Source of the DNA: Gemmatimonadota bacterium
Lineage (GTDB): Bacteria; Gemmatimonadota; Gemmatimonadetes; Longimicrobiales; Gaopeijiaceae
Assembly: GCA_022823145.1 (NCBI GenBank)
Contig: JAJDXS010000058.1
Location: forward strand, 34,908 to 98,907
DNA: 64,000 nucleotides
Direction: 5' to 3'
Made by a program: the position numbers and the translations under genes. The notes beneath the pieces are model-generated. The model was not told where the DNA came from and ran no database searches. It saw nothing but the letters and a program-made list of their open reading frames with translations. Of this stretch, positions 15,501-54,348 are shown piece by piece (within the stretch, counting starts at the first letter, position 1; each line of letters opens with the position of its first letter).

Positions 15501-16751
15501 TCAGTGGCGGTCTCCCACCACACGATGCACGCTGACAAACTCGACGCCCAGCTCGTCCCGATAGACCCCCGCCAGCAGCCCATCGCGAATCGCCAGCACC
15601 GTCAGGGCGCCGGGAGTCGATACGGGTCCCAGGTAGACGCCGGTCAGGTCGAATACATCCCACGTCGGGGGCTCGCGCGACAGCGGATCGGCCTTGAAGT
15701 GACGTGCCCAGATGGTCCCATCCGGTTCGGTCAGCAGCTGCTCGAACGCGGGCTCGTAGCGGGGGACTTCCATGCGGCCCCCCCATTCCCGCCAGACCGC
15801 CGCGTCGGCACCTGACTGGCCGATCTCGACGAGGCCCTCGATCGCCTGTGTGATGTCTTCCCCTGATACCGGCTGGCGGTCGCGCACGATCCGGTGGCGA
15901 GCCACGAGCGAACCGGCCGCGTCATGGAGCGATACCTGGGCGTCGGGGCCGCTGGCCACCGCGAGCCGGGTGCCATCGATGGCCCGCAGCGGTCGCGGGC
16001 TGAACGGCACGGGCAACATGTGGCGGCCCGTCCAGATCCACCGCTGGCCGAGAATCGTTGCCAGCCGGACCCGATCCTGCCGCACCGGATCGTAGCGCCA
16101 CAGCCCGATCGTGTCGGCCCAGGTGGTCCCGGCGTCGGGCGCCGAAATGGATACCGGGAAGGTGACGAGCCAGGCGCCATCGGCGAACAGGCCCTGAGCC
16201 ACGAACTGCGAACCGCCGAAGGACGGACGCTCCGTAGCGATCAGGTCTCCCTGTTCTCCCACGACGGAGAGGCGAGACAAGGAGCGGTCCCAGATGAGGA
16301 ACGCCCCGTCCTCGCGCCGGCCCAGATACCGCGGACTATGGAACTCTCCCGGACCCTCACCGCTGCCGCCAGCCGACCAGAGGTGGCGGCCGCCTGCATC
16401 GTAGCGGCGCACCTCGGATGTTCCGCCGTCCACGACAATGACGTCGCCGCCGGCCAGCAACGCGACATCCAGAACGCGGAAGAACTTCGAGGCGTCGTCG
16501 TCTTCGTCATCGCCCAGACGGAAGACCGGCTCCAGTTCGACGCGCCATTCCTCTCCCGGCGGCCATGACGCGGACGTGCTTTCCACGATCCCCACACCGG
16601 CGCTGTCGACGTGGATGGCGGTGTCGGGTTCCTGCTGGGCGCACGCCGTCGTGCAGAGCATGAACAGCGCTGGTGCCAGGTGCCCGATCCGCGTCAGGCG
16701 CCGACCCCCCCGACCATCACCTCGTGCCGGTGAGGTCCGCTTCCAGTTCAT
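15501..16751 (-). CDS. 6-bladed beta-propeller protein, probable lipoprotein or periplasmic
   Basis: The product has 416 residues. A basic stretch precedes IGHLAPALFMLCTTACAQQ, a lipobox-like end that would anchor Cys near residue 37. Blade motifs follow: ADTAIHVDSAGVGIVES-type start, VLDVALLAGGDVIVVDGGTS, RHLWSAGGSGEGPGEFHSPR, then DGAFLIWDRSLSRLSVV. The GSGEGPGEF motif is shared with three other propellers here. The start overlaps the end of the preceding M16 gene by 35 bases, so it is translationally coupled and is the last gene of an M16-M16-propeller operon. That context suggests a substrate-capture or scaffold role beside the two peptidase subunits, which is inference. Confidence 0.75.
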   Translation of the reverse strand: MNWKRTSPARGDGRGGRRLTRIGHLAPALFMLCTTACAQQEPDTAIHVDSAGVGIVESTSASWPPGEEWRVELEPVFRLGDDEDDDASKFFRVLDVALLAGGDVIVVDGGTSEVRRYDAGGRHLWSAGGSGEGPGEFHSPRYLGRREDGAFLIWDRSLSRLSVVGEQGDLIATERPSFGGSQFVAQGLFADGAWLVTFPVSISAPDAGTTWADTIGLWRYDPVRQDRVRLATILGQRWIWTGRHMLPVPFSPRPLRAIDGTRLAVASGPDAQVSLHDAAGSLVARHRIVRDRQPVSGEDITQAIEGLVEIGQSGADAAVWREWGGRMEVPRYEPAFEQLLTEPDGTIWARHFKADPLSREPPTWDVFDLTGVYLGPVSTPGALTVLAIRDGLLAGVYRDELGVEFVSVHRVVGDRH

Positions 16752-18225
16752 CCAGGGCTACCGGCCAGCGTGGGTGTCGCGCGGCTCTTATCCTCTCCAA
16801 CGGTCCGGCCACGACTGTCACGAAGGCCCCGGGGTCCAGGTACGCCTGCGCGACTGTCTTGACGTCGTCGGGTGTGACGGACTGAACGGCTGCAGGCCAC
16901 GCCACCAACTCGGCGGTGCCGCCGCGGCGGACATGCTCCACCGCGAAGGTCACGCTTGCGGTCGTAGCGAGTTCGAGCGACCGCCGCCAGACCGCGTCGA
17001 CCAGCCAGCCCTGGGCGCGCGTGACCTCGGACTCGGTGACGGGCTCGTCGGGATCGTGCATGCGCGCGATTTCGTCCAGGCTGTAGCGGACGAGGGGCGC
17101 CACGGCCTCGGGACGGCCCCCCGTGCGCACGAGGAGGAGACCCGTGCCCGACCCCGTCTCGGGTATCTCGAAGTCGTCGCGGTTGGCCAGGCCACGCACT
17201 TCGCGCGCGGCGATGTTGAGGCGCTCGGCGAGAATAAAGCGGAGAACGGCCAACGGGGCCCGGTCCGATTCCGGCACGGCGCCCATGGGGCGGCCGATGG
17301 CGATCCAGCCCTCCAGGCTCGGGACGTCCACGGCGTGAAAGCGGGTCGAGGGCTCGCGGGGGGTGATCGCGGCGGGTTGCGGTGCGGGCTGGCCGCTGGG
17401 AGCCCAGCCGCGGGTTGCGGCTTCCAGGGTCGCCACCACCTCATCGTGGGGCGCCGGGCCGCCGACGCCGAACACGACGCGATCGGCTGCCAGGGCCCGG
17501 GAGGCCAGCGCTCGCGCCGCAGCTGGCGAGACCATCGTGCCCGGGTCGGGAGGCGCCAGCGGATACCCCTGAATCCGCCGCTCGAGCTCGACCTTGGGGC
17601 GGTAGCCGGCGCCGCCAATTCCGGCCATCGGCATGGTGTAGCCGGGGTCCGCGCGGTGTTCCCGGATCGCACCGGCGTCCAGGTCGGGGTTGCGGACGAG
17701 TGCGATGAGCAGTTCGAGACCCGCCTGCCAGTCCTCGGGCAACACGTGGAGGGAGATGTGGACGGCGTCGAGGGTTTCCACGGTGGTCAGCGACGTCCCC
17801 AGCTCGGCCAGGAGAAGCGACAGCGGGCGGGTGGCTCCGATCGGAGTTCGGGTCGTGAGGAGTCGCGTCAGGAGCGTGGACGCGCCAGCTTCGCCCTCGG
17901 CTTCGTACAGACGGCCCAGGGGGAGCGCGGCGGTGAGGCGCACAAGTGGGTCGGAATCGGCCCCCGGCACGATGTAGGCTCGGACGCCGCTCGATGTCTC
18001 GACTAGGGCTTCGGCCGGATCGGGCGGGGTGAACGCAGCGGGCCCGAGCGCGAGTTCGCCCGGGTGGGGCCAGTCGTGCTCCAGGATCGCCCGTGAGCGG
18101 CCGGGGAGGGTGTCGCCGCCGCTGTCACATCCGGCGAGTGCGGCAGCCGCGAGCACCGACGAGGCCGCCACGGCCCGCGCATTCGGCCTCCGCCACGCGC
18201 GCATCCCGCGCACCGCGCCCCTCAT
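16717..18225 (-). CDS. M16 family peptidase-like lipoprotein, inactive-type subunit
   Basis: About 502 residues from the ATG at 18225, which overlaps the stop of the upstream M16 gene (ATGA). The open frame extends much further upstream, but that part is a shadow of the upstream gene. A lipobox (VLAAAALAGCDS) closes the signal peptide. The fold is M16: GVRAYIVPGADSDPLVRLTA, PLGRLYEAEGEAGASTLLTR, then LPEDWQAGLELLIALVRNPD and LERRIQGYPLAPPDPGTMVS. The zinc motif HxxEH is replaced by STLLTRLL. The protein is therefore most likely the non-catalytic partner of the gene upstream, as in M16B heterodimers. R/Y substrate-binding residues near the C-terminus cannot be judged by eye. Confidence 0.85.
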   Translation of the reverse strand: MRGAVRGMRAWRRPNARAVAASSVLAAAALAGCDSGGDTLPGRSRAILEHDWPHPGELALGPAAFTPPDPAEALVETSSGVRAYIVPGADSDPLVRLTAALPLGRLYEAEGEAGASTLLTRLLTTRTPIGATRPLSLLLAELGTSLTTVETLDAVHISLHVLPEDWQAGLELLIALVRNPDLDAGAIREHRADPGYTMPMAGIGGAGYRPKVELERRIQGYPLAPPDPGTMVSPAAARALASRALAADRVVFGVGGPAPHDEVVATLEAATRGWAPSGQPAPQPAAITPREPSTRFHAVDVPSLEGWIAIGRPMGAVPESDRAPLAVLRFILAERLNIAAREVRGLANRDDFEIPETGSGTGLLLVRTGGRPEAVAPLVRYSLDEIARMHDPDEPVTESEVTRAQGWLVDAVWRRSLELATTASVTFAVEHVRRGGTAELVAWPAAVQSVTPDDVKTVAQAYLDPGAFVTVVAGPLERIRAARHPRWPVALDELEADLTGTR

Positions 18226-19886
18226 CGCCCGTCTCCCGGCAGGTCCGCCCACAAGAAGTCGAGCCAGCTGGGCCCGCTTCCCTCCGGGGGCTCGGCGCGC
18301 GCGGTGGCGATCACCCGGTTGGACGGCACGAAATACGTCGCCGCGACACGCTGCACGTCCGCCACCGTCGCCGCGTCCCTCGCCGCGATCAGGTCGGGCA
18401 GCACGCTCCAGTGGTTCATCGTGTGGTGGTGCCCGATCAGGAACGCGAGCTCCTGGGGATTGTCGAGGAACTCCGCCCACTCGACCCGCAGCCGCTTCCG
18501 CGCCCGCTCCAGCGCGCCCGCGTCGATCCGCCCCTCGCGGAGGTCGGCCACCACATCCAGCAGCGCGCGCTCGACGGCTGCGAGGTCCCCGTCCGACTGC
18601 GCCTGCGCCACCAGGTTGAACGCGCCGGGCGCACCGAAGCGGTAGGTGTGGATGACGCGGAAGTCGGCCGATACCGCGGCCGCGGTGCCGGCGGCCACCA
18701 GCGTCTGGCTCGCCATGCCGTGAGGACCGCCGGCGAGCGCCGCGATGAGGTCGAGCACCGGCCTGTCCGGATGCCCCATCCCCGGAATCCGATACCGCAC
18801 ATGCACCTGTGGCGACAGCGGTTCCGTCCAGTCGAGCCGAACCGATCCGCCCGGCACCTGCTCCGACTCGATGTCCAGATCGGCCGGGGGCTCCGGTCCC
18901 CTGGGCAGGGCCCCGAAGTAGCGCTCGGCTAGCGGGACGATTCCATCCAGCGTCGCGTCGCCCACCAGCACGAGCGTCGCGTTGTTGGGCACGAAGTAGT
19001 CGTCGTAGATCCGCCACATCGCGGCCCGCGTGAAGTTCGCAAAGTCGGGCAGGTGTCCGCCGTCCGGCGTATAGACCGGGTGCGACTGTGCCGTGACGCC
19101 GTCGATCGCCTCGTTGAAGCGCGTCTGCGGCCGGCTCAGTCCTCCCAGCACCTGCTCCAGCACCGTGAAGCGCTGCGCCTCCCAACCGCGCATGACCGCG
19201 TTGACCATCCGTTCCGCTTCGAACCGGAAGAAGAGTTCCATGCGCTCCGGCGGGAGCGCCATGTTCATCTCCATGTAGTCCTGCTCGGTACTGGCCGGCA
19301 CCGGATCGGTGTGGCGCACGTATCCGCCGTGCTGCATGTACCACTTGTAGGTGGTCCAGAAGTCCCGGTACTCGTTGTCCCGGTCCTCCAGTTCGTAGAG
19401 CCGCTCCCTCAGCGCGTCCATCTCGGGCGTGGTCGGCCAGCCCAGCTCGTCGAAGAAGACCGCCCGCTCCCGCAGCCGGTTGCGCTCCCGGTTCCGAACC
19501 GCGATCAGCTCCTGCTCGGTGTCGTGAATCTCCTGCAGAATGGGCAGCTCGGCGGCCAGATCGCGGGTGCCGAGCGTCGTCGTCCCCTGGTGGATGACGT
19601 GCTCAAGGAAGTGCACGATGCCGTGGAGCCCCTCGGGCTCCAGCATCGACCCGACGCGAACCCAAAGGTTGGCGGCCACCCGTGGCGCCCGGTGATCCTC
19701 GACGAGCAGGATCGTGAAGCCATTGTCGAGGACGTGTTCCTGGACCTCGAGTGGCGGGGAAGGGGATTGGGGGATGAGGGCGGCCCCCGGCGGGCCCCCG
19801 GGCGGCCCCGCCTCCGATTCAGGCGCCGTTTGCCACGCAAGCGCGGCGAATGTGCCCACGGAAGCGATGAGAAGGAGCGTCTTCAT
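18222..19886 (-). CDS. M16 family zinc peptidase, catalytic subunit, exported
   Basis: About 554 residues from ATG 19886, preceded by GGGGTGG; a longer frame to 20027 is unlikely to be translated. A signal peptide (MKTLLLIASVGTFAALAWQT) opens the protein. The inverted zinc motif HFLEH is at about residues 92-96 in GIVHFLEHVIHQGTTTLGT, after VLDNGFTILLVEDHRAPRVA. An unusual charged insertion of about 90 residues (AVRNRERNRLRERAVFFDEL) follows. The second domain has PNNATLVLVGDATLDGIVPL. It should degrade short peptides in the periplasm. The stop overlaps the next M16 gene, so the catalytic and inactive-type chains are made together. Confidence 0.9.
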   Translation of the reverse strand: MKTLLLIASVGTFAALAWQTAPESEAGPPGGPPGAALIPQSPSPPLEVQEHVLDNGFTILLVEDHRAPRVAANLWVRVGSMLEPEGLHGIVHFLEHVIHQGTTTLGTRDLAAELPILQEIHDTEQELIAVRNRERNRLRERAVFFDELGWPTTPEMDALRERLYELEDRDNEYRDFWTTYKWYMQHGGYVRHTDPVPASTEQDYMEMNMALPPERMELFFRFEAERMVNAVMRGWEAQRFTVLEQVLGGLSRPQTRFNEAIDGVTAQSHPVYTPDGGHLPDFANFTRAAMWRIYDDYFVPNNATLVLVGDATLDGIVPLAERYFGALPRGPEPPADLDIESEQVPGGSVRLDWTEPLSPQVHVRYRIPGMGHPDRPVLDLIAALAGGPHGMASQTLVAAGTAAAVSADFRVIHTYRFGAPGAFNLVAQAQSDGDLAAVERALLDVVADLREGRIDAGALERARKRLRVEWAEFLDNPQELAFLIGHHHTMNHWSVLPDLIAARDAATVADVQRVAATYFVPSNRVIATARAEPPEGSGPSWLDFLWADLPGDGR

Positions 19887-20220: not shown

Positions 20221-21483
20221 GTGACAAGAGCCACCTACCCAATCTTGGCAACGCTGCTCGCAACCCCGGCCGTCGCGCAGGACCATCCGCTGACCCTGGA
20301 CATGACCGAGCTTTACCGCGTGGGTGGTTTGAACACCCAGGAGTGGGCCTTTTTCGGGCCTCGCCTGGAGATGGGCTTCGATGGAGCTGGCAACCTGCTG
20401 GTGCTGGATGTGGTGAACCAGCGCGTCCTTGTAATCGGACCCGACGGTCAACTTGTGCGTGTCGTCGGGCGCGAGGGCGAAGGGCCGGGCGAGTTCCAGA
20501 TGAGTTTGGTAATCGCGGTGTGGCGCGATGGCCGCTTTGCGGTGCCCGACATGGGCCATTCCGCAATCCAGGTGTTCAACCCCGACGGCGAACTTGAGCG
20601 TTTTGTCAGGCTGGCCGACGAGAACGTTCCGCTGGCCGCCACCGTCGGTTTCAGAGAAAGGATCCGGGCCGATCCACTGGGCGGCGGGATCATCGCCCAG
20701 GGGGTCGGCGGCGTGCTGGCCCAAATGGCGAACTTTGCCAATCGCCGCATGGGACAACCGGAAGACGAGAATCCGCCGGGGGTCGATGACCGCGCGCTTG
20801 AAATGTTGGACCTCTCCGGGGATGTCATGACATCGAGCCCGATCCTGCACGGATGGAGGGCACCTCGCCCCGACGTCAGCCTGTCATCGGCCGACGCTGC
20901 AGACTGGTCGAGGGTGGTCGCAACGACGGAAGACCGGCACTTCGAGCCGGGGTTTCACTGGGATGTGCTACCCGACGGCACCATCGCCTACTCCGACTCC
21001 TCCGCGTACGCCATCAAGCTTGCCCGTCCAGATGGATCAGTCATCAACGTTCTGACACGGCCGTCCTCGCCAGAGGCGGTGTCCGAACGGATCCAGCAAG
21101 AGATGGTCGCATCGCGACTTCAGCTCCTCGAGGCACGGTTGGCGCGAGGTTCGTTTTCGGCTGCGGCCCTTCCGCCGCAGGATCCCGAAGCGGGTCGCCG
21201 GAGGATTCGGGATCGCGGATTCTACCACGAAGTCCCCGTGGTACGAGGGGTCGCGATCACCTGGGAAGGCGGGCTGTGGATCCAGCGTCGTGGAGAGGAT
21301 CCTTGGGATGACAATGGACCGATCGATGTCTTCAGCGCGGATCGCGAGTACCTGGGCACGCTCCCCGTCGGCCAACCGGAGATGCCAGCTGCTTTTGGAC
21401 CCGATGGTCTCGTAGTCCATTTGGAACGGGATGCACTGGACGTGCCAACGCTCGTCGTGAGCCAGCTGGGGGAAGCCAGGTAG
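20221..21483 (+). CDS. Secreted 6-bladed beta-propeller protein
   Basis: About 420 residues from the GTG at 20221, chosen for the AGGAAG 9-14 bases upstream and because it starts a short signal peptide (TRATYPILATLLATPAVAQ). Blades follow: LEMGFDGAGNLLVLDVVNQR, VLVIGPDGQLVRVVGREGEG, then PGEFQMSLVIAVWRDGRFAV and QVFNPDGELERFVRLADENV. The VGREGEGPGEF motif links it to the propellers at 2590, 15501 and 60669. It is a single gene, divergent from the M16 operon, and ends about 70 bases before the second copy of the phased CACATTACAT repeat. The function is not known; periplasmic binding is the likely role. Confidence 0.78.
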   Translation: MTRATYPILATLLATPAVAQDHPLTLDMTELYRVGGLNTQEWAFFGPRLEMGFDGAGNLLVLDVVNQRVLVIGPDGQLVRVVGREGEGPGEFQMSLVIAVWRDGRFAVPDMGHSAIQVFNPDGELERFVRLADENVPLAATVGFRERIRADPLGGGIIAQGVGGVLAQMANFANRRMGQPEDENPPGVDDRALEMLDLSGDVMTSSPILHGWRAPRPDVSLSSADAADWSRVVATTEDRHFEPGFHWDVLPDGTIAYSDSSAYAIKLARPDGSVINVLTRPSSPEAVSERIQQEMVASRLQLLEARLARGSFSAAALPPQDPEAGRRRIRDRGFYHEVPVVRGVAITWEGGLWIQRRGEDPWDDNGPIDVFSADREYLGTLPVGQPEMPAAFGPDGLVVHLERDALDVPTLVVSQLGEAR

Positions 21484-21551
21484 GTGGACAATCGCCCGGA
21501 CGGTGGCGGATGGGGCTGAAGTGGGTTAACTTCTGGATCAGAATGTCAACT

Positions 21552-21583
21552 GCACATTACATAATGTAAACCGCACATTACAT
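21552..21583. repeat. Second two-copy CACATTACAT block with 21-bp phase
   Basis: GCACATTACAT occurs at 21552-21562 and 21573-21583, again exactly 21 bases apart, with AATGTAAAC before the second copy. Aligned with the block at 11904-11924, 18 of 21 positions agree. Here the block lies between the 3' ends of two convergent genes, not upstream of either, so a simple promoter-operator role does not fit both copies. Confidence 0.7.
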
Positions 21584-44248: not shown

Positions 44249-44839
44249 CTATGTGAAGTACGGGTTGTCCCCGCTCGCGTGGTCCGTCACGTCGTGAATC
44301 GCCGTCACCTCCGGCACCGACTGTGACACCATGCGCTCCACACCCTGGCGCAGCGTCATGCGCGACATCGCACACCCCTGGCACCCGCCCGCCATCTCGA
44401 TGAAGATCTCGGTGCCCTGCACGTCGACCAGGTTGATTACGCCTCCGTGCGCCGCGATCGCCGGGTTGATCTCGGTGTCCAGCACCTCGGTGACCCGTTC
44501 CGCCAGCGCGCCCCCGGGGCCGGCCTCGTCCATCGCGTCCTTCACCGCATCCGGGTCCGGAGTGATCTGAAAGCCGCTCTCCTGGACCGTCTCGACGAAG
44601 TCCACCCTGGCCCCGTCCAGCCGCTTCACGCTCGCTTCATCGACCAGCACCGTGAACGCCCCCGCATCGACCTCGACATCCGACGCACTGCGCGCCTCCG
44701 CCTCGACCAGCGTGAGTTCGTAGTTGGGAGCGAATGGACTTCCCTCCACCGCGATCCTGAGCGCCTGCAGCCCGTCCTCCTCCACGTCCATGAACGACGT
44801 GACCATGTCCCGGGCCTTATCCGTAAACGTCAGCTTCAT
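44249..44839 (-). CDS. nfuA: NfuA-like Fe-S scaffold/carrier protein (NifU C-terminal domain)
   Basis: The product has 196 residues. The N-terminal 100 residues have the A-type-like (IscA) fold without its Cys: [20 protein letters not shown], then [20 protein letters not shown]. The C-terminal domain is Nif[40 protein letters not shown] with the CxxC cluster ligand. This is the NfuA layout, which passes 4Fe-4S clusters to targets. It lies 51 bases after sbcC and upstream of pyrC on the same strand. DHOase is not an Fe-S enzyme, so no functional tie to it is implied. Confidence 0.9.
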
Positions 44840-44890: not shown

Positions 44891-47800
44891 CTATTCCAGC
44901 AACCCCGCCAGCGCCGATGCTCCCTCCATTCCCACGTCGGAGCGTGCGAGTTCCTGGCGTTGCGCCCGGGAGAGCCATGTCACCTGGCTGCCCTTCGCGG
45001 TTCGCGTGACGGCGAGCACGTCGTCGATCTGTTCCGCCACGGCCGCGACGTGCGAGATCACTCCCACCATCCGACCTGTCCCTGCGACCAGCGAAAGCGC
45101 CTCAATGGCGGAGTCGAGGTTGCTGCGGTCCAGCGACCCGAAACCCTCGTCCAGGAAGAGCGATTCCAGGCGGCCGCCGCTCCGGGCCATCATCTCCACC
45201 ATCCCGAGCGCGAGTGCCAGCGATCCGATGAACTGTTCCCCGCCGGAGAGGCTGGCAGGGGAACGCGCCTGGCCGGAGTCGTTGTCGACAACCAGCCACT
45301 GCTGGTCCTCCAGATCGCCCGGATCAGCAAAGCTGTAACGGCTCCCGGTCATCTCCCCCAGCATCCTGGACGCGTAGACCAGCAGGTCACGAGACCGCCG
45401 CAGCGTGAGCCACTTGAGGAACGCGCCCCGTTTGAGGGTGGCGTCGAGATCGCCAAGGGCGAGTTCGAGTGCGGCGACCTCGTCGGCGGTCTGCCGGAGC
45501 TTCAGCAAGTCGTCGAGGATGGCGGCGAACCCGTCCCTGGCCCGCGTCGCGTCCCGGGCGGTGTAACGCGCCTCGTCGGCTGCCCTGCCTGTGGATCGCA
45601 GCAGGGCCTCGAGGTCGGTGGCATCGCCGGGAGGGTCCAACTGCGCGGCAACCCTCCGGGCTTCGCGCCGCGCCTCGTCGGCGGCAGCGAGAGCGCGGTG
45701 GCGAAGGTCGGTGGCTTGCGTGAGCACCTGCTCAATCGCTTCGCGTAGCCGACCGAGTCCCTCTCGGAGCGCCGTCGCGTCCACCGGGTAGTGAATGGCC
45801 CCGGGGACCGCGATCTCGACAGCCAATTCCCGAACGGCGTCCGCGAGAGCGGTCCGGTGGTCCGCGAGCGCCCGCACCAGGGCCTGCAGAGCCTCCTCGA
45901 CTTCGATCTTTCGGGTCTGGTCGAGACGCTGCAGCGCGGTCCTTGTCTCCTCGATCCCGGCGCGCAGGCGGTTCCGCTCCCGTTCGCGCATCTGGAGGAT
46001 CTTTTCGCGCTCCCGGGCCGCGTACGAGGCACGATCGACGGGTGTGGTGTCGACGGTTTCCAGCTCCAGGGGGTCGGGGGGAAGGGCGAGTTGGGGGCGA
46101 AAGGGCAGGGGGATGGACTGGATGCTCCGGGTGAGGGCTCCGAGGGCTTCGTCGGCGGCCTTGCGGGTTCTTTCGGTTTCGTTGCGCGCGTGGACGAGTG
46201 TCTGCCGGGCCGAGGTCTCCTCCATCTGGGCACCGGTTTGCGCCTTGCGCAGCTCTTCGGCCTTGGTGCGGTGATCGCCGAGCTTCGCCTCGGCTTCGCG
46301 GAAATGCAGCCCAACCGGGGCAAGGGCCTGTTCCCGGTCGGGCAGTGGCGCGTCCCCTGCGAGTGGGAAGGCGTCGTCAAGACCGGCTTCGTCGCGAAGG
46401 TGCCGGAGCGCACCAGCCATCTCGGAATGAAGGTCATCGAGTGCGCTCCGGGCGTCCCTTGTACCCAGCCGGGCGGACTTTTGCTGCGCCCTGAGATCGG
46501 CAACGACCGTGTTTGCCGCATCGGCGTCCGACCGCGCCGCACGGCGGACCTCACGCGCCGCGTCAAGACCGGTGTCCCGCGGTGGGGCCCAGCCCTCGGG
46601 GAGTTGGTGCTGACAAATCGGACACTCGTCGCCCGGACAGAGATCGTGGGCTGCGGCCGCGGCCGCGTTGGTACGCCGAGCCTCACTCAGCCCCTGCTCG
46701 GCCCGTTGCAGCCGCTCCTGCGCCCCCTGCAGGTCACTCTGCGCGGTGGTGAGCCGTCCGGATACCTCGGCTCCCTGCTGCTCCCGCCTGGCCAGGCCGG
46801 CCTTCGACGAACGGATGCGCTCCCGCAGGTCGCGGCACCTGTCATACCAGCGTTCGGCATTCGTCAGGCGCTCACGAACAGAAGCGACGGCTTTCGCAAG
46901 GGGCGGCTCCAGCGCCTGGTGCCGGGTCACCCGATCTGCTGCCGATTCGAGGGCCTGTTGAGCCTGGGCATGGTCCTTCGCCGCCTTCGTCTCGCCCAAT
47001 ATCGCGTTGCGCAGTCCAAGGGCCGCTTCGACCGCCCCCTCCACCTGGTTCGGGATCGCGTCGAGCGTTGCCAGGGTGCGCGCGATCTGATGATGGTCAG
47101 GACCGTCGTCGGTCGGAATGCCGTTCATGTCTCGCCTCAGACGGGCCTCGCGCTCCTTCAGCTCCGTCGTCCTGGCCCCGATCTGGCGCTGCGCACCCTC
47201 CACTGGATCAATCCGGTCGGCAAGTTCTTCCAGCGCCGCCGGGGTCAGGTGCTCGCTTGCGCGCCGGACCGCTGCGATCGTCACCTCGGACTGGCGGAGG
47301 GCATCGCGGGCCCGCGTCGACCGATCCCGAAGATCGGCCAGTGCGACTGCTCGACGACTCGCCGCTTCGGCCCGCGACGTCAGCAACGCAAGGTGCGCTT
47401 CGGGATCGTCCGGATGGCGCTCTACCTCATCCTGCAGCCGGATCGCCAGCGTTCTGACCTCGCTCAGCCTCTGCCCTGCCACCACTCCCGCCGCCTCCAG
47501 ATCCTGCGTGCGCCACACCTGCCGCAGGATCTCGGTGCGGGCGGACGGTGCGTCCTCCACCAGAAGGCGGGCAAAGCGCCCCTGCGGCAGAATCACGGTG
47601 CGCAGGAAGGCGTCGCTGTCGAGCCCGATGAGCTCCTGCACGCGCTCGTTGACCGGCCTGACCTGCTCGACCTTCTCGAGCGTCTCACCGCTGGGCCCGT
47701 AGCGAACAAGCTGCGCCTGGGCGGGCCGGAGTCCCCCCGCGCCCGCTCGCCGGTCCACCCTGGTGACTTCCCACTCCTCGCCAGCCACCTGGAATCGCAG

Positions 47801-48022
47801 CACGACGCGCATCACGTCAGACGTGTCGTTCATCGACTCCTGCTTGGACCGGCCCCCAAGCGACGTCTGTCCGTACAGGGCGTAGGTCATCGCTTCGAGG
47901 ATCGACGACTTCCCGGCGCCGGTGTCGCCGATGACCGCGATCTGGGTGCGGCCGCCGAAGTCGATCCCGACCTCGGCCCTGAAGGAACGCAGTCCCTCGA
48001 TGGTGATTCGAAGCGGGCGCAT
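44891..48022 (-). CDS. sbcC: SbcC/Rad50-type SMC ATPase, DNA double-strand-break processing
   Basis: About 1043 residues from ATG 48022 (MRPLRITIEGLRSF), five bases after the sbcD stop. Walker A (IGDTGAGKSS) is at residues 32-40, followed by LEAMTYALYGQTSLGG. Long coiled coils flank a zinc hook CPGDECPICQHQLP near residue 466. The C-terminal half closes with SPASLSGGEQFIGSLALALG near 924 and Walker B with D-loop (LFLDEGFGSLDRSNLDSAI) near 957. It pairs with SbcD as an ATP-driven nuclease that trims DNA ends and hairpins. Context: the last gene of a cluster nurA-herA-ATPase-sbcD-sbcC. Confidence 0.95.
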   Translation of the reverse strand: MRPLRITIEGLRSFRAEVGIDFGGRTQIAVIGDTGAGKSSILEAMTYALYGQTSLGGRSKQESMNDTSDVMRVVLRFQVAGEEWEVTRVDRRAGAGGLRPAQAQLVRYGPSGETLEKVEQVRPVNERVQELIGLDSDAFLRTVILPQGRFARLLVEDAPSARTEILRQVWRTQDLEAAGVVAGQRLSEVRTLAIRLQDEVERHPDDPEAHLALLTSRAEAASRRAVALADLRDRSTRARDALRQSEVTIAAVRRASEHLTPAALEELADRIDPVEGAQRQIGARTTELKEREARLRRDMNGIPTDDGPDHHQIARTLATLDAIPNQVEGAVEAALGLRNAILGETKAAKDHAQAQQALESAADRVTRHQALEPPLAKAVASVRERLTNAERWYDRCRDLRERIRSSKAGLARREQQGAEVSGRLTTAQSDLQGAQERLQRAEQGLSEARRTNAAAAAAHDLCPGDECPICQHQLPEGWAPPRDTGLDAAREVRRAARSDADAANTVVADLRAQQKSARLGTRDARSALDDLHSEMAGALRHLRDEAGLDDAFPLAGDAPLPDREQALAPVGLHFREAEAKLGDHRTKAEELRKAQTGAQMEETSARQTLVHARNETERTRKAADEALGALTRSIQSIPLPFRPQLALPPDPLELETVDTTPVDRASYAAREREKILQMRERERNRLRAGIEETRTALQRLDQTRKIEVEEALQALVRALADHRTALADAVRELAVEIAVPGAIHYPVDATALREGLGRLREAIEQVLTQATDLRHRALAAADEARREARRVAAQLDPPGDATDLEALLRSTGRAADEARYTARDATRARDGFAAILDDLLKLRQTADEVAALELALGDLDATLKRGAFLKWLTLRRSRDLLVYASRMLGEMTGSRYSFADPGDLEDQQWLVVDNDSGQARSPASLSGGEQFIGSLALALGMVEMMARSGGRLESLFLDEGFGSLDRSNLDSAIEALSLVAGTGRMVGVISHVAAVAEQIDDVLAVTRTAKGSQVTWLSRAQRQELARSDVGMEGASALAGLLE

Positions 48023-48026
48023 CCGG

Positions 48027-49277
48027 TCAGGCGTCCCCCCCTCCCCCACGCAGTGCGGTGAGGACCCCCTCGGCGCGCACCGTCAGCCCGGTCAGCCCGA
48101 AGTCCGGCCCCTCCTCGTCCCCCGAGCCAGCCACAGCCTCGCGAAAGAGTGCCAGGACCGTGTCGCGGGGAGCCTTCGTCGCCCTCCCGGTCGCCGCCGT
48201 GCTCCGCCACTCGACGAAGAGATCCTCGATGGAGGGCTCCTCCCCGTCGCCGTCCCCGGAGATTGCCTTGACCGTCCGGTTGGCCACCTCGTTGACCAGG
48301 TTGAATACCACGCACTCCGGCGACCATTCGGCCACCCGGTCCGCCAGGTCAGGAATGGGGTCATCGGACTTCACCACAGCCTTGAGAAAACAGCCGTCCA
48401 GTGCCCTATCGGCCGCCCGCTCCTCCAGTTCGCGGAACGTCCCGGTGAAGCTCTCCAGCGGCCGCCCCGGGGGCAATTCCCGTTCGCCGACCTGGACGTC
48501 GTCGCCGATCGTGACCACGACCGCATGCTTGCGCTGGCGGCTCTCGCCGTAGTCCAGAGGGATCAGCGACCCCGCGTACCGGCCGCGCACGCTTCCCGGC
48601 AGTTGCTGCGGGTCGTGGATGTGCCCGAACGCACAGTAGAGCGCCCGGTGGAGACCCTTCGTGTGCGTGGCGTGATCCTCGCCCACGGTGAACCGCCGCT
48701 CGGAGTTGCCGGGCCGTGCCCCGTCGACGTGCAGGTGGGCCGTGTAGAGGACGATGCCGTGCGGGCCCGCGGCCTGGCGCGCGCGGTCGATCACATGGTC
48801 GTTGAGGTTGCGGATGCCGTCGGCGTAGTCGCCCTCGAAGCGCAGGGCATCGGCGGTGGCGTAGTCGGTGATCGCCCCGGGGGGAATGAACGGGACGCAG
48901 GCTAGCGCGACGGGGACCTCCGCCAGGTCGTCGAACTCCACGACGCGTGGCGAGGTGACGAACCGGAGGCGCCGGGGCGAGGCCATGCCCGCCATGTCGT
49001 CGAGGACATCGAACAGGGCGCCCGAGTCGTGATTGCCGCTGATCACCACGGTCGGCGCGATCCGCGCCAGCCGCTGCAGGGCGGTGACGCCGAGCCTGAG
49101 CGCGGGGTAGGGGGGACGGTAGGCGTCGAAAAGGTCGCCCGCGTGGACGATCAGGTCGGGGCGTTCGGCGGCGGCGATGTCGAGGAGCGCCTTCAGCGCC
49201 GAGTGGTGGTCGTCGGTCCGTTCGTGGCGTCCCAGCTTTGCGCCGAGGTGCCAGTCGGCCGTGTGGAGGAGTTTCAT
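48027..49277 (-). CDS. sbcD: SbcD/Mre11-type exonuclease subunit
   Basis: About 416 residues from ATG 49277; the open frame upstream is a shadow of the ATPase gene. The calcineurin-like phosphoesterase motifs are complete: MKLLHTADWHLGAKLGRHER, DLIVHAGDLFDAYRPP, VVISGNHDSGALFD, IVLYTAHLHVDG, then CAFGHIHDPQQLPG and RYAGSLIPLDYGE. These bind the two Mn ions for 3'-5' exonuclease and endonuclease activity. The C-terminal part has a capping domain and an Asp/Glu-rich linker. It overlaps the upstream ATPase gene (ATGA) and is followed closely by sbcC. Confidence 0.95.
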   Translation of the reverse strand: MKLLHTADWHLGAKLGRHERTDDHHSALKALLDIAAAERPDLIVHAGDLFDAYRPPYPALRLGVTALQRLARIAPTVVISGNHDSGALFDVLDDMAGMASPRRLRFVTSPRVVEFDDLAEVPVALACVPFIPPGAITDYATADALRFEGDYADGIRNLNDHVIDRARQAAGPHGIVLYTAHLHVDGARPGNSERRFTVGEDHATHTKGLHRALYCAFGHIHDPQQLPGSVRGRYAGSLIPLDYGESRQRKHAVVVTIGDDVQVGERELPPGRPLESFTGTFRELEERAADRALDGCFLKAVVKSDDPIPDLADRVAEWSPECVVFNLVNEVANRTVKAISGDGDGEEPSIEDLFVEWRSTAATGRATKAPRDTVLALFREAVAGSGDEEGPDFGLTGLTVRAEGVLTALRGGGGDA

Positions 49278-50428
49278 GCGCTTCTTATCCGCTCGCGGAG
49301 CGTGCCGATCTCCCACAACGGGACCACCGTGATCCGCTCGCTCACCGGGTATGCCCGCGGGGCGGGGCACACCACGAACAGGTGATCCACCCCCAGCGCG
49401 TCCGCCGAGGCGCGAGTCCTGCGCGAAACGGACGGCGACTCGCTGAACTTGATCTCGAATCCCGTCCAGCGACCCTCGACGGTGGCCAGCAAGTCCAGCT
49501 CCCCGCCCCCGTGCGCGGCCCAGAACCATGCATCCGCCGGGCGCAAAACGCGCAGCAGCTGCTCGATCACGAACCCCTCCCAGGAAGCTCCGACACGCGG
49601 ATGCGAAAGCAGCGCCGTGTCGTGCGGGATGCCCAGCAGGGTATGAAGCAGGCCCGTGTCGCGCAGGTAGACCTTGGGCGCCTTGACCTGGCGTTTGGCG
49701 ATGTTGTGGAACCACGGCTGCAGCTGCCGGACCATGAAGGTGCCGGTTAGAAGATCCAGGTAGCGGCGCACAGTCTTGTCCGACAGCGACAGCGCGCGTC
49801 CCAGGTTGGACGCGTTCCACGTCTGGCCGTGGGAATGCGCCAGCATGGTCCAGAAGCGCCGCATCGCTGCGGCGGGAATGGAGATCCCGAGCTGGGGCAC
49901 GTCCCGCTCCAGGAACGTGCTCACGAACGATTCCCGCCAGGCCCGGCTGTCGTCGTCGGACGCAGCCAGAAAGGAGCGGGGGAAGCCTCCGCGTACCCAG
50001 AGGTCGCGCCACTGCGGCGGACCGGTCTCATCGAGGCCGAAGCCGCTCATTTCGATGAGTTCCACCCGCCCGGCCAGCGTTTCCGAGACTCCCCGCACCA
50101 GATCCGGCGCCGCGCTGCCCAGGACCAGATACCGCGTCCGGGAGCCCGGCCGGTCCACCAGCACCCGGAGAGCCGGGAAGAGCTTCGGCATCCGCTGCAC
50201 CTCGTCCAGCACCACCAGTCCATCCAGGGATCCCAGAACGAGCTCGGGATTGGCAAGTCCGCGGACATCCGGTTCCGACTCCAGATCGAAGCGCGTGGCC
50301 TTCCTCCCGGCGGCGAACTGCCGTGCGAGCGTGGTCTTGCCGCATTGTCTCGGACCCAGCAGGGCCGTGATGGGAGCGCGGGCGGTCGAAACCTCCAGCC
50401 GCCGGAGATAGTCGGGGCGTGCTAGCAT
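49274..50428 (-). CDS. AAA-family ATPase with DUF4143 domain, inside the DNA-repair cluster
   Basis: About 384 residues from ATG 50428 (MLARPDYLRRLEV); ATG 50491 is upstream in frame. Walker A is ITALLGPRQCGKTTLARQFA and Walker B is GLVVLDEVQRMP, followed by sensor TRYLVLGSAAPDLV and LIEMSGFGLDE. The C-terminal DUF4143 part carries WVRGGFPRSFLAASDDDSRA, a winged-helix-like SLSDKTVRRYLDLLTGTFMV, and a PD-(D/E)XK-like end with GGGELDLLATVEGRWTGFEI, then KFS: the D...E-x-K pattern is intact. The stop overlaps sbcD (ATGA), so its synthesis is coupled to Mre11. An 80-base gap separates it from herA, which suggests its own promoter. Confidence 0.9.
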   Translation of the reverse strand: MLARPDYLRRLEVSTARAPITALLGPRQCGKTTLARQFAAGRKATRFDLESEPDVRGLANPELVLGSLDGLVVLDEVQRMPKLFPALRVLVDRPGSRTRYLVLGSAAPDLVRGVSETLAGRVELIEMSGFGLDETGPPQWRDLWVRGGFPRSFLAASDDDSRAWRESFVSTFLERDVPQLGISIPAAAMRRFWTMLAHSHGQTWNASNLGRALSLSDKTVRRYLDLLTGTFMVRQLQPWFHNIAKRQVKAPKVYLRDTGLLHTLLGIPHDTALLSHPRVGASWEGFVIEQLLRVLRPADAWFWAAHGGGELDLLATVEGRWTGFEIKFSESPSVSRRTRASADALGVDHLFVVCPAPRAYPVSERITVVPLWEIGTLRERIRSA

Positions 50429-50508
50429 GGTCGTAAGATAGCGTGAAAATTCGGAGCACGCATCCGAGATTTCGTGTATAGGATTGGTCACGCAAGCGCT
50501 TGGAGCTG

Positions 50509-52347
50509 CTACAACCCCCTCTCCGCCCCCGACATCGCCCCCAGATTCGCCATGATCGTCTCCGTCCGTTCCCGGTCCCGCGCCTCGTCCACCACCGCCT
50601 CGTCCGGATTGGTCGCGAACGGTGGGAACGGAAACCGCAACGGGATCGGCTCGGGAACGATCGGCTGGGACAGGACCATCGTCCCGGGCATGAAACGCGA
50701 CGCACGCTCGCGCAGCGAGGACGAGAGGAAGCGATAGGCGTCGGCCTCGTTGGCATCGAGCCGTCCGGCCACCTTGAGCGACGCGTTGCGGGGAAGAGCG
50801 GGAGCCACGGCCGAAGCGGCCTGCTGAGCACCCACCAGAAGCACCCCAAGGGAACGCCCACGCTCGGCGATGTCGACGAGAAGCTCCCTCAGCGGCGAGT
50901 ACCCTTTCGCGGGAGCGTACTTGTTGAGTTCGTCCAGGACGACGAAGCGCAGCGGAACGCGTCCTGTCCCCTGCTTCTCGCGCCAGACCCCGTCCAGCAG
51001 CGAACCGACCACAAAACGCTGGGCGTCGTCGTGCAGTGTGGAGATGTCGACCACGTGCAGGCGGGCGTTTTCGGAGGAAACGGGCTTGAGGCCGCAGCCG
51101 ATCAGAGGTCCGATGTGCTTGCGGAGCCGCAGCAGCCGGCGCAGGTACGCCTGGCGGGTGCCAGCCTGGGTGCGTCCGAACCAGGCCTTGATCGTGTCGT
51201 CGTCGTCGCGGTTGGCCATCTTCTCGGTGAAATCGACGAATCCCCCGAAGTCCTCGATCACATGGCCGGCGCCCGCGCGCACCGTCTCGGGTTCCCTGGC
51301 CGCCATCCGGTCCGGGTCGAAGCTCGTGTCCTCGGGGACGGTGGGGAGGATCACCACCGCGCCCGACTCTCCGCCCTCGAGGCGGCGAAGGTGGCGCAGC
51401 AGCTGGATGCGAAACTGCTGCTCGATGAAGCCGACCTGGGTCGAGCGGTCGTCCTCGGAGGTGAAGCAGAACTGGAGGAGCTGGTCACGGATGAACTGCT
51501 CCGGGGTCCATCCGTAGGCGTGCACGTCGCGGGTGTCGCGAGACTTGACGCCCGGCACCGTCCCCGAGACGCCGGGCCGCCGCGGGGCGTACAGTCGCAC
51601 GGAGCGGAAGGGGCCGGGATCGCCGACGCCCAGGGCGCGCCACTGGGCACGCGCGTTCGGCCTGCCCGGAAACTCGGAGTTCGGGCGATCGAGATGGAGC
51701 AGGTCCTCGCCCTTGGTGTTGAAGACGAGGGCGCGCACGTTCTCGCGTTCGGCACGGCCTCCGAGGAGTGCCATCCCGCCTTCGGTCTCGAGGAGCTGGT
51801 AGAGGATGTACAGCGCGTACGAAGTCTTGGTCGCCACGCCCGATATCCCGGAGATCGAAAAGTGTCCCCCGGAACGTCCGTCAACGAAGCGCATGTCGGC
51901 GTAGATGGGCTCGCCACCCATGTCCAGGCCGACCGGGAGCTTGCCGCGCTTCATCTCGTCCTCGAACAGCGCGATCGTGCGGTCCCGGCCGACGGCGCGC
52001 ATGGCCACGGAACCCGCGTTCGGCGCCACGAAGAGTTCGGGGACGACGCGCAGCACCCGCACCTCGGCCAGACGCACATGCTCGGCGGGTATGACTCGGT
52101 CGACGACCCGGGCCGTGTCGGAGGGCAGGTCGGCGCCCTCGAAACGGCTGCGCAGCTCGGTGACAATCCCGTAGTGGGTAACCTGCGTGCCATCGGGGAG
52201 TCCGGTCCGGACGGCGACCAGCTGGTCCAACTGGACGTTTGCGCCAGGGTCGAGCACTACCTGAAACTCGCGCGAATTGCTGCCGTGCGAGCCGTCCAGC
52301 AGCCCGATCCGGTGGTCTTGTGCGGTGGTTGCGTCCTGGCCGGTCAC
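50509..52347 (-). CDS. herA: HerA-type hexameric DNA-translocating ATPase
   Basis: The product has 612 residues and starts at GTG 52347, which overlaps the nurA stop. An N-terminal HAS-barrel (LDQLVAVRTGLPDGTQVTHY, GIVTELRSRFEGA) is followed by the HerA/FtsK core. Walker A is the HerA variant HFSISGISGVATKTSYALYI (x-T-K-T-S), Walker B is LRFVVLDELNKYAPAKGYSP, and sensor LGVLLVGAQQAASAVAPALP and an arginine-finger region (RLDANEADAYRFL) follow. It should pump DNA through the ring for its partner nuclease NurA. The adjacent nurA gene supports this strongly. Confidence 0.88.
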   Translation of the reverse strand: MTGQDATTAQDHRIGLLDGSHGSNSREFQVVLDPGANVQLDQLVAVRTGLPDGTQVTHYGIVTELRSRFEGADLPSDTARVVDRVIPAEHVRLAEVRVLRVVPELFVAPNAGSVAMRAVGRDRTIALFEDEMKRGKLPVGLDMGGEPIYADMRFVDGRSGGHFSISGISGVATKTSYALYILYQLLETEGGMALLGGRAERENVRALVFNTKGEDLLHLDRPNSEFPGRPNARAQWRALGVGDPGPFRSVRLYAPRRPGVSGTVPGVKSRDTRDVHAYGWTPEQFIRDQLLQFCFTSEDDRSTQVGFIEQQFRIQLLRHLRRLEGGESGAVVILPTVPEDTSFDPDRMAAREPETVRAGAGHVIEDFGGFVDFTEKMANRDDDDTIKAWFGRTQAGTRQAYLRRLLRLRKHIGPLIGCGLKPVSSENARLHVVDISTLHDDAQRFVVGSLLDGVWREKQGTGRVPLRFVVLDELNKYAPAKGYSPLRELLVDIAERGRSLGVLLVGAQQAASAVAPALPRNASLKVAGRLDANEADAYRFLSSSLRERASRFMPGTMVLSQPIVPEPIPLRFPFPPFATNPDEAVVDEARDRERTETIMANLGAMSGAERGL

Positions 52348-53336
52348 ACGGCCTCCTCATCCCGGTTGTGTTGCATGACGGCCTCCCGGACGGCACGCAG
52401 TGCCAGGCGCGAGTCGCCGATCAGGTGGTGAAGGTGCTGTTCGAGCCGTGCCACCGGTGCAAGGTTGACCGGCGCACGGGCATCGCGGTGAGGCGCCGAC
52501 GCGAAGGTGGGAAGCCAGCTGGCAGCGCGATCGACGGTCGCGATCGCCTGAGCGCTGCCCGAACTCGCGGGCACCTCCAGGCGCGCGATCCCTGCCCACG
52601 GCCCCGCCCAGGGACCGGGGTCGCCCACACGGATGTAGCACGCATAGCGGTCGTCCTTCATGGCGAAGATACTCGTCCGTTCTCCGACGAGGAGGCCAGG
52701 CACGACCTGCCAGTGCTCAACCGCGAGCGTGCGACGGTGGTGCGTTTTCACGTACCCCACTACGGGCGTCCTACGGCTGCGGCGGATACTGTGAAGCGGA
52801 CCGTCGAAGACGACCAGCCAGCCTTCCGCGAAGAGGTGGTCGGCGATTGCGGCTTCGGTGTCCCGCATCAGGCGCTGGAGGTGTTGCGACGCCGCGTGGG
52901 GCTCTTCGCTGTCGACCGAGAGAGCCGTCCAGCGCCACCCGCCCGGATGTGGATGCAGTCGAACCTGCTCACCCCCGGAGAAGATGACGGCGCGACGGAT
53001 CTCCACGTGACCGATCTCCGCCGGGCCATCCTCCCCGATGAGAACCGCCCCGGCACCCCACGCCCCGGCGATCCCCGTAATCGTCTCGCCCTGCGGGTTC
53101 GTGCGCGTCAGGTGTGCCTCGGTTCGGCGCACCCCGTCCACGAAGCAAAGTCGTGTCGGCGGGCCCGCGTCGCGCGGCTGATGAATGCGGAAGTGTCCCC
53201 CATCCTCCACGACTCGGCATTCGACCGTGTGTTCATCCTCTTCGTCCGCGCGAAACCCGGCGCCGTATGACGCGTCGAACGGCTCGACCCCGATGAAAGG
53301 GCGGCGTCCGGTGTCGTTCGTCTGAGGGATGGCCAT
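52344..53336 (-). CDS. nurA: NurA domain nuclease
   Basis: About 330 residues from ATG 53336 (MAIPQTNDTGRRPF); the upstream extension has no protein-like character. NurA motifs: RLCFVDGVRRTEAHL (catalytic Asp of 'DGxRR'), GWLVVFDGPLHS (second Asp), VVGYVKTHHRRTLAVEHWQV, then CYIRVGDPGPWAGPWAGIAR and LEVP. The terminal segment (ATVDRAASWLPTFASAPHRD, ARAPVNLAPVARLEQHL) fits the usual 'P..l..ig.lE..Lrh.lGD' end. NurA proteins are Mn-dependent 5'-3' exonucleases activated by HerA. It is the first gene of the cluster and divergent from an SDR gene. Confidence 0.82.
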   Translation of the reverse strand: MAIPQTNDTGRRPFIGVEPFDASYGAGFRADEEDEHTVECRVVEDGGHFRIHQPRDAGPPTRLCFVDGVRRTEAHLTRTNPQGETITGIAGAWGAGAVLIGEDGPAEIGHVEIRRAVIFSGGEQVRLHPHPGGWRWTALSVDSEEPHAASQHLQRLMRDTEAAIADHLFAEGWLVVFDGPLHSIRRSRRTPVVGYVKTHHRRTLAVEHWQVVPGLLVGERTSIFAMKDDRYACYIRVGDPGPWAGPWAGIARLEVPASSGSAQAIATVDRAASWLPTFASAPHRDARAPVNLAPVARLEQHLHHLIGDSRLALRAVREAVMQHNRDEEAV

Positions 53337-53475: not shown

Positions 53476-54348
53476 ATGCAAACCATCGCCATCACCGGAG
53501 CGAACCGCGGAATCGGCCACGCCACCGCAGCCCTCCTCGCCTCCCAGGGGCACCGCGTCATCCTCGTCTGCAGGGACCGGAACCGTGGCCACGACGCCCT
53601 CGCGTCATTGGATCCCCTCCCGAACCGCGCCCGCCACCACCTCGTCGTCGCCGATCTCGCCTCCCTCGACTCCGTGCGGGAAGGTGCACGGGAGATCCTC
53701 GATCTCGATTATCCTCTGGCAGCCCTCGTCAACAACGCTGCGGTGCTTCCCGCGAAGCGCACGCTGAGCCGCGACGGCTTCGAGATCCAGCTTGCCGTCA
53801 CGCACATGGGTCATTTCCTCCTGACCCATCTGCTCATGCCCCTCCTGGAGCGCCACGAGGAGACGAGCCGCGTCGTAACCGTCTCTTCCGGCGCACACGT
53901 CGGCCCCCCGCTGGACTTCGAGGACCTGAACTTCGAAGTGCGGCCATACAAGCGGACGCGAGCCTACCAGCAGAGCAAGCTGGCGAACGTGCTCTTCACC
54001 TTCGCCCTTGCCCGACGCACCGCCGACACCAATGTCGAGGCCGTGGCGCTGCATCCGGGGGTCTACGACACCGGGCTGCTGAGGGACTACATGAGCGCGG
54101 TTCCCGGCAGCGGTGCAGTCGCGAGCGTATTCGCAGGCAACGCCGGGAAGGCGGCTCCAATCCTCGCGGGACTCGCTGCCGGGCGAAGAGACGAGAAGCT
54201 GAGCGGAGCTTACCTCAACAAGGCAGTCGTGGACACGCCCTCAAGGGCAGCGCGTGAAAGGGAGGCCCAGGAACGTCTTTGGGAATGGAGCACGTCCGCG
54301 GTGGGACTGTCGGCTGACGGCGCCGGGCGCATGGCCGGGGAAGGGTAG
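53476..54348 (+). CDS. SDR family oxidoreductase, retinol-dehydrogenase-like
   Basis: 290 residues. The NADP-binding motif IAITGANRGIGHATAALLAS is followed by VILVCRDRNRGHDALASLDP, where the Arg suggests NADP. Then come LAALVNNAAVLPAKRTLSRD, VVTVSSGAHVG with the Ser, and the active-site YQQSKLANVLFTFALARR. This matches the retinol dehydrogenase/WW-domain oxidoreductase branch, longer than classical SDRs at the C-terminus (SGAYLNKAVVDTPSRAARER). The substrate is unknown. It is monocistronic and divergent from nurA by 139 bases. Confidence 0.9.
   Translation: MQTIAITGANRGIGHATAALLASQGHRVILVCRDRNRGHDALASLDPLPNRARHHLVVADLASLDSVREGAREILDLDYPLAALVNNAAVLPAKRTLSRDGFEIQLAVTHMGHFLLTHLLMPLLERHEETSRVVTVSSGAHVGPPLDFEDLNFEVRPYKRTRAYQQSKLANVLFTFALARRTADTNVEAVALHPGVYDTGLLRDYMSAVPGSGAVASVFAGNAGKAAPILAGLAAGRRDEKLSGAYLNKAVVDTPSRAAREREAQERLWEWSTSAVGLSADGAGRMAGEG

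Follow-up and report, generated by a model that had tools for sequence, protein, structure and literature searches.

A 64,000-nucleotide stretch of Gemmatimonadota DNA (contig JAJDXS010000058.1, positions 34,908 to 98,907; the window) carries on its minus strand a nurA-herA-sbcD-sbcC operon, which by its sequence is of the bacterial, Deinococcus type, the closest solved proteins being those of the Deinococcus complex. A DUF4143 ATPase gene is inserted at the seam between herA and sbcD, and the same genome encodes an AddB-AddA pair. We see about an even chance that the operon specifies an end-processing nuclease that serves both in repair and in defence against foreign DNA. What appears to be new is that the herA/sbcD seam holds inserts in 10 of the 19 genomes of the family with the window's version of the operon, and that versions of the operon are interchangeable. 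Literature searches returned no description of seam inserts or version swaps and nothing joining defense island, hotspot, HerA and SbcC; a search on Gemmatimonad with NurA and HerA gave nothing related, as judged by title and start of abstract. Genomes and loci are referred to by our own numbers (G and L); the window belongs to G000.

The five minus-strand genes proposed in an earlier note on this DNA (nurA, herA, DUF4143 ATPase, sbcD, sbcC) were confirmed in order and strand, as were the stop-start overlaps of nurA with herA (52344-52347, 4 bp) and of the DUF4143 gene with sbcD (49274-49277). The predicted nuclease gene nurA (52344-53336, minus strand, 330 amino acids) shares its last 4 bases with herA. 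The comparison with NurA profiles that the note had proposed gives a match to Pfam PF09376 of 31.9 bits against a cut-off of 21 (scored on a longer open reading frame (ORF) reaching 53561), the one Pfam NurA match in the whole genome. Among PDB sequences, NurA matches Deinococcus radiodurans NurA (drNurA, 7f6d_H, expectation value (E) 2.9e-18) and Thermotoga TM1739 (1zup, E 6.6e-5). In the alignment with drNurA the blocks VDG, DGP and GYVKT are kept, which we take to be nuclease motifs. The predicted DNA-pumping ATPase gene herA (50509-52347, minus strand, 612 amino acids, GTG start) belongs to no Pfam or NCBIfam family, with nothing in Pfam even at E 10; it matches D. radiodurans HerA (drHerA, 7f6d_B) with E 1.5e-107 across residues 1-584, and its P-loop region ISGISGVATKTSYAL is identical to that of drHerA in the alignment. 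The Mre11-type nuclease gene sbcD (48027-49277, minus strand, 416 amino acids) scores 135 bits with TIGR00619 (cut-off 77.65) and is above cut-off for Pfam Metallophos; its start is likely at 49277, since TIGR00619 matches the ORF 48027-50012 only from residue 246 onwards. The Rad50-type ATPase gene sbcC (44891-48022, minus strand; ATG at 48022, alternative GTG at 48049) is above cut-off for Pfam AAA_23 and SbcC_Walker_B and scores 190 bits with TIGR00618, under the model cut-off of 478.5; a hook motif, CPIC, was read by eye. The window thus holds the SbcD nuclease domain and the SbcC ATPase halves with hook that characterise SbcCD. The DUF4143/AAA_14 ATPase gene (49274-50428, minus strand) has a likely ATG start at 50428 in an ORF that runs on to 50491 (Pfam E 3.3e-44 and 5.2e-22 for ORF 49274-50491), and PADLOC assigns its protein to the candidate family PDC-S01 (E 9.8e-85).

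HerA is homologous to drHerA over most of its length and nurA lies directly upstream of herA, as in the Deinococcus type. We distinguish three versions of the operon: type 1 is that of the window, type 2 is diverged and type 3 is distant. All PDB matches are bacterial, with drHerA the best match for HerA of types 1-3, and drNurA and TM1739 matched by NurA of types 1 and 2. The description of the cluster as archaeal-style in the earlier note is not supported, as the closest solved NurA-HerA is that of Deinococcus and sbcD-sbcC following nurA-herA had already been reported in Oceanithermus profundus (PMC5448004; this paper, PMC9960219 and PMC12977600 are cited for parts of their text). In that bacterium hepA (= herA) is followed downstream by the genes for SbcD and SbcC, an arrangement like the archaeal set (PMC5448004), so the four-gene bacterial cluster is not new; neither seam cargo nor cassette swapping is mentioned for O. 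profundus in the cited parts of PMC5448004. With D. radiodurans the window shares the NurA and HerA families and the P-loop region, and nurA and herA are regarded there as a single operon (PMC9960219); the window differs in having sbcD-sbcC in the same operon and a DUF4143 gene at the seam. Archaeal nurA-herA-mre11-rad50 operons unite the same four functions (PMC12977600), whereas the nearest solved sequences to NurA and HerA of the window are from Deinococcus. An old archaeal source of bacterial nurA-herA is possible; bacterial herA-nurA is assumed to come from archaea (PMC12977600), and the best identity of Thermus and Oceanithermus HerA to an archaeal HerA is 27% (PMC5448004). Two defence systems mentioned in PMC12977600, HerA-Sir2 and HerA-DUF4297, likewise couple a HerA ATPase to an effector. 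In the window, however, the partner is NurA, and 8xau, the next HerA chain among PDB sequences, gives only a negligible match (E 0.78). We take 8xau to be a system of the HerA-Sir2/HerA-DUF4297 kind. When PADLOC was run on the operon's own proteins, weak partial matches were found for HerA (mad8, HerA) and SbcC (mad3, LmuB and others), and none for NurA or SbcD.

The AddB-AddA pair of the window genome (contig C9) consists of two overlapping genes with PDDEXK_1 domains. The AddA-like protein (1128 amino acids) has UvrD-helicase, UvrD_C and PDDEXK_1 domains, and the AddB-like protein (1349 amino acids) has PDDEXK_1. The earlier note had suggested that the operon replaces or adds to RecBCD/AddAB. 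The adjacent pair disproves a replacement of AddAB in this genome, and addition is the sole part of the suggestion to survive. An archaeal-type joint resection machine standing in for RecBCD/AddAB would agree with the conserved four-gene order, but we consider it very improbable in view of the overlapping AddA-like and AddB-like genes in the same genome and of the Deinococcus proteins as closest solved relatives.

The distribution of the operon was surveyed in two sets of 121 genomes each, one covering the phylum and one the family (f1), the latter with a genus subset of 23. A HerA match is present in 82 of the 121 phylum genomes: 8 of type 1, 8 of type 2, 65 of type 3 and one further genome (G072, L076), whose HerA is 42% identical and whose gene order is that of the window. 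HerA of type 2 is 41-44% identical to the window's in the N-terminal half, and the order is herA-sbcD-sbcC-nurA in the 10 type-2 loci examined (L071-L075, L108-L112). In type 3, a SbcD match lies at most 3 kb downstream on the same strand in 58 of 65 genomes; only 24 of the 121 phylum genomes have a SbcD match over the family cut-off. Two type-3 loci, L077 and L078, have the order nurA-herA-X-sbcD-sbcC, where the nurA label is weak (E 1.6e-4 to the window NurA in L078; no Pfam family in L077). The copies of the gene between herA and sbcD in these loci (L077 6123-7076, L078 5998-6852) are 30% identical; that of L077 belongs to no Pfam family. Pfam NurA matches 8 of the 121 phylum genomes (7 over cut-off), yet misses G058 (L046), whose nurA is 86% like the window's, and is therefore too insensitive to score absence. 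In the family, HerA matches were found in 40 of 121 genomes (3 of them weak), 19 being of type 1 and 18 of type 2; none of the 37 genomes carrying either version has both. Scanning public genomes turned up 32 loci whose HerA is 65-98% identical. Fourteen of these are labelled as other phyla (Acidobacteria/Vicinamibacter-type, Gammaproteobacteria/Pseudomonadales, Spirochaetaceae or Euzebyaceae), all from metagenome-assembled genomes whose labels may be wrong; the order nurA-herA-sbcD-sbcC is seen in 11, and contig ends truncate the other 3. Since the four-gene operon is conserved, the four proteins likely function together. As a separate observation, G096 (L082) has a type-1-like sbcD-sbcC (63% and 46%); the 14 kb retrieved contain neither nurA nor herA, and nothing in the genome as a whole matches HerA.

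The spacing of herA and sbcD, taken as the number of base pairs between the matched parts of the genes, divides the 19 type-1 genomes of the family. In 8 it is 9-38 bp, in G126 it is 262 bp, and in 10 (G000, G059, G121, G053, G098, G131, G133, G124, G070 and G144) it is about 1 kb or more. In type 2 the spacing is 62-205 bp in all 18 genomes, and none has a seam insert. The operon's other seams and the AddB/AddA spacing served as controls. The nurA/herA seam is opened in none of the 18 type-1 genomes measured (maximum 184 bp; cut in G139), and the sbcD/sbcC seam is opened in 1 of 18 (G136, by a PDC-S11 gene; maximum 90 bp in the others; cut in G133). Between the nuclease domains of AddB and AddA there are 2874-3288 bp in 7 of 8 type-1 genomes, and the eighth (G053) has the two domains on two contigs. 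For 4 of the 10 occupied seams, herA and sbcD are on separate contigs (G053, G059, G098, G121). In G059 and G121 the sbcD contig opens with a herA-like end followed by DUF4143; in G053 and G098 the link across the seam is deduced from the cargo upstream of sbcD. The contig breaks at the herA end had been considered as a sign of large inserts, which we rejected, as the herA-like end in G059 and G121 runs directly into DUF4143. These two breaks are put down more simply to a G-rich stretch, and the 71%-matching herA end of G121 was therefore not counted as a duplicate.

Seam cargo varies between genomes and comes mostly from phage-defence families. Different defence genes occupy the seam between the same neighbours, as in a hotspot: Druantia III, Bunzi, SoFic, GmrSD_N and DUF4143. 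Of these, SoFic, Druantia and Bunzi have been tested as defence systems. PADLOC was used for the defence families and Pfam for GmrSD_N, AlbA_2 and Fic, and part of the cargo ORFs was scanned. The seam of G144 encodes DruE of Druantia III (E printed as 0), DruH (8.5e-67), MTase_II (4.4e-116) and an AlbA_2 protein. G098 has BnzA (3.5e-75) and BnzB (2e-65), a Fic protein, an AAA ATPase gene and a DUF4143 piece. In G133 (L035) there are SoFic (2.4e-112), an AAA_15/21 ATPase, AlbA_2, DUF3800, a Mrr/ResIII fragment and a broken DUF4143. G053 carries DUF4143 and a Fic protein, and G131 (L037) carries GmrSD_N, DUF4143, and AAA and AlbA_2 pieces. The Fic proteins of G098 and G053 are 95% and 97% like the L035 SoFic. 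The seam of G124 (L044) holds DUF4143, a radical SAM gene, an aspartyl-protease-like ORF and the gene of a 1413-residue protein without family. In G000, G059 and G121, DUF4143 is the sole cargo. No site-specific integrase or transposase was found behind the inserts among the cargo ORFs scanned, which did not include every ORF. Known phage-defence islands, and operons that harbour defence genes (such as BREX with inner genes), resemble the operon in having variable defence genes between constant neighbours; here, in contrast, the host operon is a DNA-end-processing set. Two further observations concern the same loci and genes. A 168-bp direct repeat (92%; 15576-15742 and 21401-21566) in L044 flanks a block with the 1413-residue protein and the DUF4143 ATPase, and in L034 a SoFic gene (17232-18401, E 2.1e-111) lies outside the seam, just downstream of the operon at site B.

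The operon versions replace one another at shared sites. Each of the 23 genus genomes has exactly one version, 15 of type 1 and 8 of type 2. In the window the operon lies at site A, between an SDR-like gene (53476-54348, plus strand, labelled by eye) upstream and an nfuA-like gene (44249-44839, minus strand; Pfam NifU and Fe-S_biosyn over cut-off) downstream. Among the 22 genus genomes with nfuA, site A is empty in 11, with the SDR-like gene and nfuA adjacent; 8 genomes have type 1 there and 2 have type 2, and G128 is unassigned. At site B, four genomes (G058, G061, G123, G132) carry type 1 and two (G127, G130) type 2, both flanks being shared. Type 2 is likely at site B in G017 and G134 as well, where the upstream flank only, a TonB-receptor gene with paralogues, is common. 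At site C, likewise recognised by the upstream flank only, type 1 is found in G098, G131 and G133. In another genus of the family (g4), 2 genomes have type 1 and 9 have type 2. On a tree of NfuA and PyrC for 22 genomes, the version has to change at least 6 times, with 5 changes forced by well-supported branches, and it is not clustered on the tree (176 of 500 shuffles gave as low a count). G061 (type 1) and G127 (type 2) are 95% identical across 11.3 kb at the empty site A; their site B flanks are 93% and 89% identical, ending close to both operon ends, and the versions between them differ. G123 (type 1) and G130 (type 2) repeat this pattern at flanks that are 93% and 87% identical and end near the operon ends. 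Such turnover of versions is more like that of immune loci than of repair genes. Pairs of loci from near-identical genomes with diverged operon versions at the same site and clean edges are L034 and L073, L042 and L110, and L118 and L117.

Judging from the known families, SbcCD would open DNA ends that are blocked, bound by protein or folded into hairpins; the HerA ring would then pump duplex into the NurA dimer, and NurA would degrade or resect it; AddAB would handle ordinary breaks in parallel. Counter-measures of phages and plasmids may favour the turnover of versions, and the seam genes would be accessory immune modules that travel with the operon via recombination in flanking homology. 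We infer a joint nuclease with a defence role. The pure repair role given in the earlier note is not established, as the defence genes at the seam and the replacement of whole operons point at least partly to immunity. Whether HerA-NurA serves repair or antiviral functions is disputed; a 2026 study considers a direct role of the archaeal complex in end resection unlikely and argues that it may be antiviral (PMC12977600). We favour a dual repair-and-immunity machine because version exchange and embedded defence genes resemble immune loci and because of this antiviral argument. More tentatively, the operon as a whole might be a swappable immune nuclease, its versions exchanged under phage pressure like restriction systems and its seam docking defence genes that may guard the nuclease against phage inhibitors. 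Near-identical genomes with either version at one site, the inner defence genes and an AddAB pair elsewhere in the genome make the choice between repair and antiviral function directly testable in this operon, and suggest that SbcCD with NurA-HerA is worth examining as an immune unit.

A serious rival is plain repair, in which NurA-HerA and SbcCD resect double-strand breaks beside AddAB, and inserts and swaps are neutral flux at recombination-prone sites; we regard this as possible, though short of probable. NurA-HerA of D. radiodurans has been investigated as a complex for end resection (PMC9960219), part of the seam inserts are non-defence genes, and exactly one version in each of the 23 genus genomes fits a required function. 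Neutral flux accounts less readily for the concentration of inserts at one of three internal seams, and for type-2 operons that are free of inserts although two of them occupy site A like the window's. AddB-AddA, another repair pair, keeps its spacing, and swaps between nearly identical genomes are judged unusual for repair genes. Several observations nevertheless weigh against a defence role for the operon. Since each genus genome keeps exactly one copy, a housekeeping need is suggested, although this is tempered by the 81 of 121 family genomes without a HerA match. The 10 occupied seams are not 10 events, as three of the genomes are sister species and DUF4143 and SoFic copies are shared. As the genomes share ancestry and the tree requires no more than 3 changes of cargo state across its 14 type-1 genomes, the p value of 0.0004 from Fisher's test (seam inserts in 10 of 19 type-1 and 0 of 18 type-2 genomes) is too small. 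No herA/sbcD gap larger than about 300 bp was found in the 14 loci labelled as other phyla. The G144 seam also carries a TonB receptor and a metallo-beta-lactamase-fold protein, those of G098 and G124 carry radical SAM proteins, which are non-defence, and the 1.6-kb seam of G070 gave no family match. In the type-3 operon of G006 (L079 5574-15346), herA and sbcD are separated by a non-defence insert with a TonB-receptor gene, two M16 peptidase genes and a sigma-factor gene. DUF4143, the sole cargo in the window, is no more than a candidate defence family in PADLOC, and a full-text literature search on DUF4143 with defence and phage returned nothing beyond a Thermus Argonaute paper.

The earlier note had expected its gene order to be conserved in related genomes and had included the DUF4143 gene in an operon of five. 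The four core genes do keep their order; the DUF4143 gene is missing from the relatives' seam and behaves as cargo. It was rejected as a core gene, as herA and sbcD are only 9-38 bp apart in 8 relatives. A five-gene system with the DUF4143 ATPase as a fixed functional partner of HerA or SbcD would be in keeping with the overlap of the DUF4143 stop and the sbcD start in the window, with purifying selection on the gene (nonsynonymous to synonymous rate ratio (dN/dS) 0.10-0.15 in six pairs of four intact copies) and with DUF4143 genes from more than one lineage at the seam. It is nonetheless quite unlikely, as the seam has no room for DUF4143 in 8 of 19 type-1 and all 18 type-2 genomes, and the copy is broken-looking in L035 and in pieces or shortened in L037 and L041. 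Purifying selection also fits a working accessory gene, as the dual repair-and-immunity machine would have.

Traces of gain and loss of cargo are present at several seams. The 28 bp after the herA stop in the window (50481-50508, minus strand) agree by eye in 24 of 28 bases with the start of the AAA ATPase gene of L037, and are likely, to judge from this match, a relic of a longer insert. This AAA_15/AAA_21 ATPase gene follows herA in L035, L037 and L041 (domain found in the L035 copy); it is open in L035 and L041 (578 and 582 amino acids), and its frame is broken in L037. The 262-bp seam of G126 has a 148-bp stretch 84% in common with the cargo contig of G053. Past the AAA gene, L035 and L037 have a partial second herA 3' end (215 and 138 bp), which would be expected had the cargo come in through recombination in herA. 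An imperfect palindrome, GAAA..CTCGGA-n7-TCCGA.TTTTC, was read by eye just upstream of the DUF4143 genes of the window (50445-50473, minus strand), L037, L064, L066 and L068, and is maybe a control element.

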